Assembly (NCBI GenBank): GCA_016928955.1
Contig: JAFGJV010000016.1
Span: 1-62,224, forward strand
Direction: 5' to 3'
Length of the DNA: 62,224 nucleotides
Origin: Spirochaetales bacterium
Lineage (GTDB): Bacteria; Spirochaetota; Spirochaetia; Treponematales; UBA12059
Part shown: positions 149 through 62,224 of the stretch, in pieces
How the letters are laid out: every line of letters begins with the position of its first letter
Numbering within the stretch: position 1 is the stretch's first letter
Notes under the pieces: model-generated
What the model was told of the DNA's origin: nothing
The model's input: the letters and a program-made list of their open reading frames with translations, nothing else
Database searches by the model: none
Position numbers and translations under genes: made by a program

Positions 149-185
149 AGGGGGCTTCTAAAAACTTCAATTTGTAGAGGTTCCC
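149..185. repeat. Short palindromic element (CTCTAAAAAC family)
   Basis: GGGGGCTTCTAAAAAC and TTGTAGAGGTTCCC form imperfect inverted arms around a short loop. Related copies occur near 11.4, 31.5, 33.8, 53.15, 58.5, 58.95 and 62.1 kb, always between genes. This copy lies just downstream of the minus-strand kinase stop codon. Confidence 0.7.
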
Positions 186-11402: not shown

Positions 11403-11478
11403 GGAAGCATCTAAAAACATTAATTTTGGGGAGTTGCCTTAGAACCTCGAGCGTTTTCGGCCAAAAACGCGGGGCACC
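11403..11478. repeat. Degenerate palindromic element with GCGTTTTCGGCC module
   Basis: A CATCTAAAAACATTAATTTTGGGG segment followed by CCTTAGAACCTCG and GCGTTTTCGGCCAAAAACGCGGGG matches the two-module form of the family with several substitutions. It starts directly after the TAG of the previous gene. Confidence 0.55.
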
Positions 11479-11583
11479 GCTCAGAAGCCACATGCCTTCC
11501 TCCGCGGCGCCCGTCTGTGGTACACTCGGGGAGCGACCCGGCCGGCGTCGTTCGTCCGGGTTGCCGTTAACAAGGAGGAAGAC

Positions 11584-31508: not shown

Positions 31509-31542
31509 GGGGGCCTCTAAAAGCTTCAGTTTAGAGGTTCCC
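31509..31542. repeat. Short palindromic element (CTCTAAAAAC family)
   Basis: GGGGGCCTCTAAAAGCTT and CAGTTTAGAGGTTCCC form a hairpin between the membrane protein gene and the homocysteine operon. It may act as a terminator-like structure, but it has no T run. Confidence 0.7.
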
Positions 31543-33802: not shown

Positions 33803-33852
33803 GGGAACCTCTAAAAACTGCAGTTTTTAGAGGCCCCCTTCGGTTTTTAGAT
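33803..33852. repeat. Perfect palindromic element (CTCTAAAAAC family)
   Basis: Positions 33808-33833 form a perfect 26-bp palindrome (CCTCTAAAAACTG and its complement) inside GGGAACC and GGCCCCC ends. It is followed by a partial GGTTTTTAGATGCTGC copy. The same 26-bp core recurs at the window's right end. Confidence 0.8.
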
Positions 33853-52978: not shown

Positions 52979-53018
52979 GCGTCGTGCGGAACAACAACGG
53001 AAAGTGTATAATAATCGA

Positions 53019-53237
53019 GGCTCCGTCAAAAGTCGGACGAGTTTTGACGGAGCTGAATATTGGTATGTGATGTGCGTAGCGGTTGAGAAAAACGCAAACA
53101 ACCGCGAGCAATCGCAAAGCCAATTTCAGAAGTAACAGACTTTTGGGAACCTTCAAAAACCCAATGGTTATTAGAGGTTCCCTGCGTTTTCGGCCGAAAA
53201 CGCTAGGTTTTTTAAGGCTCCCTTTTGAAATTGGCTC
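53019..53237. repeat. Three-hairpin intergenic element, copy 2 (interrupted)
   Basis: Reverse-oriented relative of positions 1-131. Its hairpins are CTCCGTCAAAA/TTTTGACGGAG, GCGGTTG/CAACCGC and ATTTCAGAAG/CTTTTGAAAT. The last arm is split by the 76-bp element at 53146-53221. The 289 bp between the two lipoprotein genes contain only this structure and no gene. Confidence 0.75.
53146..53221. mobile_element. 76-bp MITE-like insertion with 6-bp target duplication
   Basis: The element runs from GGAACCTTCAAAAACC to TTTTTTAAGGCTCC and contains GCGTTTTCGGCCGAAAACGC. It is flanked by CTTTTG at 53140-53145 and again at 53222-53227. Removing it and one CTTTTG restores the hairpin arm seen intact at the start of the window. 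It encodes no protein, so it would have to be moved by an enzyme encoded elsewhere. Confidence 0.7.
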
Positions 53238-53267
53238 AATCAGAAACATGAATCCCGGAGGATGTGT

Positions 53268-58492: not shown

Positions 58493-58550
58493 AGGGAGCC
58501 TCTAATAACTTCAGTTTTTTAGGTTCCCTTTAGGTTATTAGAGGCTACCT
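58493..58550. repeat. Palindromic element pair (CTCTAATAAC variant)
   Basis: AGGGAGCCTCTAATAACTTCAG and GTTTTTTAGGTTCCC form one hairpin, followed by a GGTTATTAGAGGCTACC half. It is a variant with ATAAC instead of AAAAC. Confidence 0.65.
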
Positions 58551-58844: not shown

Positions 58845-58925
58845 GTCCCGGCAGACGGCGCCGCGGCGGCCGGTGCGCGTTGGTGGCAAGCGTGCACGTA
58901 CCCGGCGGCCTGTCCGCGCCTTAAA

Positions 58926-58989
58926 GCCTTGTGTTTTCTGCAGAAAACGCGGGGAACCTCTGATAACCATGGGGTTTTTTGAGGTTCCC
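58926..58989. repeat. Two-module palindromic element
   Basis: GTGTTTTCTGCAGAAAACGC is followed by GGGGAACCTCTGATAACC and GGTTTTTTGAGGTTCCC. It has the same modules as the 53.15-kb and 62.1-kb copies but in the opposite order, as expected for the reverse orientation. Confidence 0.65.
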
Positions 58990-62118: not shown

Positions 62119-62224
62119 GGGAACCTCTAAAACCCCTTGGTTATTAGAGGTTCCCTGCGTTTTCGGCCGAAAACGCAGGGTTTTCTAAGGTAACCCTCTA
62201 AAAACTGCAGTTTTTAGAGGCTCC
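62119..62224. repeat. Composite palindromic element, cut by the window end
   Basis: In order: a GGGAACCTCTAAAACC/GGTTATTAGAGGTTCCC hairpin, the GCGTTTTCGGCCGAAAACGC module, AGGGTTTTCTAAGG, and a perfect 26-bp CCTCTAAAAACTG palindrome ending in GGCTCC. It shows the longest form of the family in this window. Confidence 0.8.

Follow-up and report, generated by a model that had tools for sequence, protein, structure and literature searches.

A short hairpin element inserted into another hairpin element in a Spirochaetales contig, and the MITE-A family to which it belongs

The window, that is, the whole stretch of 62,224 nucleotides analysed here, carries two kinds of short hairpin element, named MITE-A and MITE-B. 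A three-hairpin MITE-B lies at 53017-53237 on the minus strand (its canonical strand begins GAGCCAATTTC) between AATC target duplications at 53013-53016 and 53238-53241, and is 87% identical to a second MITE-B at 1-133, found by BLAST and by sequence on the plus strand and truncated by the contig start. The first copy is interrupted at 53145-53226, where its last hairpin is split by a plus-strand MITE-A of 78 bp (53145-53222; GGGAACC...GGCTCCC), identified from its sequence, its BLAST family and its alignment to an intact 108-mer (L285). The sequence on either side of the insert shows a TTTT target duplication (53141-53144 and 53223-53226). Within the insert, hairpin A (53145-53182, plus strand) is formed by the left terminal inverted repeat (GGGAACCT...) and its own internal inverted copy, in line with the family consensus fold, and the middle hairpin B (53184-53203, plus strand; GCGTTTTCGGCCGAAAACGC) is a perfect palindrome detected as a BLAST self-match. 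Hairpin C, the third, is internally deleted: compared with L285, the 30 bp between AAGG and CTCCC are missing, with the junction at 53217/53218.

When the flanks are joined (up to 53144, then from 53227), the MITE-B hairpin is rebuilt (...AACAGACTTTTGAAATTGGCTC), and the unsplit hairpin at the start of the window matches MITE-B minus MITE-A minus one TTTT, providing an empty site for comparison. The insertion of one short, gene-less hairpin element into another really happened. The original prediction had recognised both the splitting of a larger element's last hairpin and the empty site, but placed the insert at 53146-53221 (76 bp), one base short on each side, and the unsplit hairpin at 1-27, where it extends over 1-32. 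It had also counted at least seven other copies in the window, and seven copies or fragments were found. These are a 36 bp solo hairpin at 150-185 (minus strand) with an ATAA duplication (146-149 and 186-189), a degenerate copy at 11403-11481 (minus strand, by BLAST), a 34 bp solo hairpin at 31509-31542 (minus strand) with a duplication matching at three of four bases (ACTA/ACGA), a 36 bp solo hairpin at 33803-33838 (plus strand), a remnant with two hairpins at 58494-58549, a partial copy at 58918-58989 (minus strand; BLAST, 83% over 73 bp) and a near full-length copy at 62119-62224 (plus strand, by BLAST) truncated by the contig end. Both contig ends thus lie inside repeats, MITE-B at 1-133 and MITE-A at 62119-62224, and contigs C4, C42, C53, C56 and C57 likewise terminate in MITE-A; the repeats thus appear to cause breaks in the assembly, which gives them a practical side. 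As a separate feature of the window, the last approximately 19 bases (CGAATCCCCTATTCTCCA) of a tRNA-Ala gene (1672-1745) are repeated downstream in both orientations (approximately 1783-1802, 1924-1942 and 1988-1999), and the region 1672-2000 looks like attachment sites left behind by integrated elements.

Searched with the 76-mer, the 2.87-Mb genome (59 contigs, 99.5% complete) yielded 96 matches. Alignment of the copies with their flanks showed that nearly all of the longer ones extend about 30 bp beyond the 76-mer, and that the intact element is about 108 bp in length (GGGAACCTCTAAAAACCCCATGGTTATTAGAGGTTCCC-TGCGTTTTCGGCCGAAAACGC-AGGGTTTTCTAAGGTAACCCTCTAAAAACTGCAGTTTTTAGAGGCTCCC) and folds into three hairpins. 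The family therefore stands as predicted, but its unit does not, the 76-bp form being a deletion derivative of this larger element. The terminal repeats are 16 bp long (GGGA(A/G)CCTCTAAAAAC), and each is part of a hairpin formed with its own inverted copy, with the third hairpin in between. In those stretches of the genome that were fetched because they hold copies, 69 were called: 27 full-length, 35 short and 7 intermediate. Elements of the family are dispersed and measure 36-158 bp, too short for a transposase. A pair of ends 1.3 kb apart on contig C24, taken up as a candidate autonomous element, proved to be two separate elements flanking ordinary genes.

Almost all copies (59/61) lie outside genes as predicted by a rough hexamer gene caller, 7 of the 59 lying where a fetched stretch begins or ends; the other two are near ORF starts. 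Gaps between genes holding MITE-A were co-directional in 27 cases, divergent in 13 and convergent in 12, compared to 59/24/18% of background gap bases. This placement fits tolerated insertions, and a role as terminator or leader is not favoured because it is so close to background.

Target duplications were far more frequent than in shuffled data. Among full-length copies of this genome, 18/27 have a perfect 4-bp duplication (2000 shuffles: mean 1.1, maximum 5), as do 11/35 short calls (shuffled mean 1.1) and 15/24 full-length copies in relatives (shuffled mean 1.6). Of 21 covariance-model hits in further genomes, picked without regard to their flanks, 10 are perfectly duplicated. These duplications, with the nested insertion and its empty site, bear out the prediction of a mobile, non-coding palindromic family, but the duplication itself had been given as the 6-bp CTTTTG. 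Across all calls in this genome 4 bp are perfectly duplicated in 30/69, and 17 of the 30 reach 6 bp (CNNNNG), while only 3 of 19 perfect duplications do so in relatives; the duplication is therefore 4 bp, and the flanking C and G reflect a preference. At the nested site, the outer C and G of CTTTTG are the C and G of the target together with the G that opens the element and the C that closes it. The target is C-W4-G, with C before the duplication in 24/30 cases and G after it in 21/30, and its outer bases are a site preference rather than part of the duplication.

MITE-B is a frequent target, with 7/61 MITE-A copies in or directly beside it (expected 0.65, P 5.6e-6). Most of this excess can be accounted for by the density of CW4G sites, which in MITE-B is five times that of the rest of the intergenic DNA. 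At least one more nested MITE-A insertion occurs at the same CTTTTG site (L226:11915). In another MITE-B (L229:952-1104, minus strand), hairpin A contains 10 bp (GGGGACCTAT) that are enclosed by duplicated AAAA and seem to be the worn remains of an earlier MITE-A insertion.

Intact MITE-B is about 139 bp, has 4-bp duplications of its own (such as TAAA, TATC/GATA and AATC) and is common not only in the family of this genome but also in further families of the order. Its terminal repeats (GAGCC(A/T)...TTTCAAAA) differ from those of MITE-A. A 385-aa PF01609 transposase in G033 (L279) has (G/A)AGCCTCTTTCAAAAC at both ends, and this match to MITE-B makes it a candidate partner. It scores below the family cut-offs (best IS5 model 53.9 bits, cut-off 110; IS1182 model 83.7, cut-off 270), and no target duplication is visible around the candidate IS. 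A tandem pair of MITE-B elements was seen in the relative G001 (L270:1358-1639), with AGCT between and outside them (AGCT-B-AGCT-B-AGCT). About 17 MITE-B elements are also hit by the MITE-A model over the model's whole length, with E-values down to 3e-10, although the fold alone adds to these scores; both elements have TCKGTTA as the apical loop of their first hairpin and AAGGTA at the foot of their last one. Such similarities leave some room for descent of both from one three-hairpin ancestor, with outer arms changed to match different transposases and the layout of hairpins retained, a reading we consider possible but doubtful. If it were true, the fold itself would be under selection across the order, as RNA or as single-stranded DNA.

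The original prediction had proposed looking for a full-length transposase gene whose ends match those of the element; such a gene was found in four relatives (G001, G054, G081 and G132) and none in this genome. In G001, an open frame of 353 aa lies between inverted copies of GGGAACCTCTAAAAAC, which span 1261 bp from one end to the other. The copies in G001 and G132 have GGG(A/C)ACCTCTAAAAAC on either side, shared with MITE-A, and small changes occur at one end in G054 (GGGCATCT) and in G081 (GGCCACCT), so that exact or near-exact 16-bp MITE-A ends surround a transposase of about 335-353 aa. Three of the transposases were compared with the NCBIfam IS5 model NF033581 and scored 278-303 bits (cut-off 140), and the protein also matches PF01609 (DDE_Tnp_1). 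Of the nine copies with two ends, six have perfect 4-bp duplications (AATA, TGTA, ATAT, TAAA, ATAT, TAAT) and three do not; 4-bp duplications are what IS5-group insertion sequences make. Several intact copies have duplications without a flanking C..G pair (C-AATA-A, C-TGTA-A, G-TAAT-A). The PF01609 hits of G034, G055 and G058 were rejected as cognate, as their ends differ from MITE-A; G055 carries a different multicopy PF01609 insertion sequence (L163, L166, L169, L171, L173), every copy of which has CTAAAATGAACATCTAATAAC close to one of its ends.

In this near-complete genome a profile search found no PF01609 gene, and a protein search down to E 10 found neither the cognate transposase nor a remnant of it. 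Across the order, the cognate transposase was detected by protein search in only 18/394 genomes (E<=1e-10), whereas a covariance model of MITE-A, used because an exact pattern is too strict to gauge abundance, has matches in 207/394 genomes and 57/92 genera; MITE-B probably accounts for some of these, for example in G014, G021 and G033. The complete genome of G024 has at least 16 model hits yet no PF01609 gene, and includes two identical 141-bp MITE-A copies (L110:15198-15338 and L111:11490-11630) with perfect duplications, TTTT and TGAA. It follows that the insertion sequence is lost quickly or that another transposase also serves the element.

In a phylum-wide sample, two genomes outside the order match the MITE-A model, only weakly, and the strict exact pattern, run against about 85,000 genomes, returned Treponema/Spirochaetaceae records only. 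Searches of phage and plasmid collections returned no relative of the 108-bp element, and no description of these elements was found in the openly available treponeme literature. The MITE-A-type elements of relatives are 108-158 bp long with the same ends and 4-bp duplications. They share one layout, of hairpin A, a middle hairpin, a linker that contains a sequence like AAGGTA, and a hairpin C whose loop is of the CTTCAG/CTGCAG type; the middle hairpin is retained, but its sequence is unrelated between genera.

Since a matching insertion sequence exists in relatives and its transposase was not found here, the family is most readily understood as a MITE that an IS5-family transposase has mobilised in trans. 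We consider it highly probable that 53145-53222 is a MITE copy that was moved in this way, inserted at a C-WWWW-G site in MITE-B and is now short of 30 bp through later deletion, and that the transposase gene, now absent from this genome or unassembled, survives in relatives. The DDE transposase would bind the 16-bp ends, and insertion into the last MITE-B hairpin would duplicate the central TTTT. The repeated arms within the element would then permit the later deletions that gave the 78-bp copy and many solo hairpins of 36-38 bp.

These solos bear on the strongest rival, in which palindromes of 36-38 bp transpose independently and a pair of them makes up the 108-bp form. Because the 108-mer has unlike ends (GGGAACC and GGGAGCC), a deletion between the repeated arms predicts chimeric solos with one end of each type and the loop of either hairpin A or hairpin C. 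Both kinds were seen with duplications (L092:15424, TAAT; L146:9342, TTTA; L106:17654; L215:18282). About 8 of the 35 short calls are merely hairpin A or C of longer copies split by the caller (window 62119, L106:2294, L228:54). Among the approximately 27 true solos, 14 are A-end/G-end chimeras (AA/AG or AA/GG), exactly as internal deletion predicts, and about 11 have ends of the same type, which is beyond what simple deletion explains. Independent movement would also account for the perfect duplications of 11/35 solo calls, symmetric ones included (L108:13861, L220:3944). Two transposase-bound 16-bp ends only 4 bp apart would, however, be hard to synapse, and the rival is judged unlikely. Many solos thus look like deletion products of larger insertions, comparable to solo LTRs, and not like 36-mers moving on their own, and the 78-bp copy is the same kind of deletion with other endpoints (AGG...AGG).

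A second rival takes the three-hairpin structure to be a functional RNA, or a regulatory signal for termination, processing or stability, that is under host selection, with mobility secondary. Compensatory changes on both sides of the stems exceed those of shuffles (9 pairs and 27 cells in 22 elements, shuffles 3.9 and 8.3; in a single genus group 7 pairs, shuffles 2.5), the middle hairpin persists from genus to genus despite a complete change of sequence, and the TCKGTTA loop and AAGGTA foot are shared. The covariation may reflect either selection on the fold or correction of the palindromes by template switching, which also yields paired changes. The near-background placement, without a clear terminator- or leader-like bias, speaks against a host function, as does the element's going undetected in nearly half of the sampled genomes, and Rfam has no family matching at the elements. 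We regard this rival as distinctly improbable.

Far less credible is movement as REP/REPIN-type palindromes, which a tyrosine transposase of the RAYT type (IS200/IS605-like) would transfer in single-stranded form. The small size, intergenic position and high copy number are alike, and there is an unpaired GGTA-like motif at the foot of hairpin C (AAGGTAA/AAGGTAGC), but MITE-A makes true 4-bp duplications at a target consensus, where no duplication would be expected, and its ends are identical to those of a DDE-type insertion sequence. Least tenable of all is a 6-bp duplication with C/G mismatches arising by later mutation, which would suit the 17 CNNNNG cases in this genome but is refuted by the relatives, where the inner 4 bp are perfect and extension is rare, and by the intact insertion sequences that have 4-bp duplications and no C..G pair.

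With mobilisation in trans by an IS5-family transposase as the preferred reading, scattered palindromes become a defined mobile-element family with a candidate transposase, detected in about half of the order's sampled genomes. The mismatch between element and enzyme offers a way to test how non-autonomous elements outlast their enzymes or share them, and the covariation of the stems prompts one to ask what makes a DNA parasite hold on to three hairpins.

Several known systems invite comparison. The matching insertion sequence resembles the IS5 family (NF033581) in its score above the cut-off, its length of about 1.2 kb, its single gene and its 4-bp duplications. Its ends, in contrast to those of MITE-A, are without a strong palindromic extension, and by eye no similarity of MITE-A to its interior was noticed beyond the 16-bp ends. 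IS5-family MITEs include BrickBuilt and MITE464 of Porphyromonas gingivalis, and ISNme1 is named as the proposed parent of the Neisseria ATR (PMC4596501); MITEPsy1 of Pseudomonas syringae is given as 'IS5?' (PMC3189936). Like MITE-A, they are short and non-coding, with IS5-family terminal repeats and several to many dispersed copies, but in MITE-A either end is folded into a hairpin of its own and a third hairpin separates the two, a layout kept order-wide, and there are 4-bp duplications at a C-W4-G target and solo hairpins that would derive from deletion. The ends of MITE-B (GAGCCTCTTTCAAAA) resemble the ISNme1 ends (GAGACCTTTGCAAAA) quoted in PMC4596501. REP/REPIN sequences of the GTAG and CGTC families are tagged single hairpins, the GTAG family being linked to RAYT enzymes, and NEMIS/Correia, RUP, ERIC and Nezha are bacterial MITEs with strong hairpins (PMC3733652). 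The former are likewise small, numerous intergenic palindromes, from which MITE-A is set apart by its target duplications and DDE-type ends, and the latter are similar to it in size, intergenic placement and strong RNA fold if transcribed. The terminal repeats and parent IS families of NEMIS/Correia, RUP, ERIC and Nezha differ from those of MITE-A, and we know of no order-wide three-hairpin layout among them. Rickettsia palindromic elements have many copies within coding genes, whereas nearly all MITE-A copies are outside them. In mechanism MITE-A is ordinary, as an IS5-type MITE; what seems new is the conservation of a three-hairpin architecture throughout an order, and its spread and its transposase mismatch are unusual as well.
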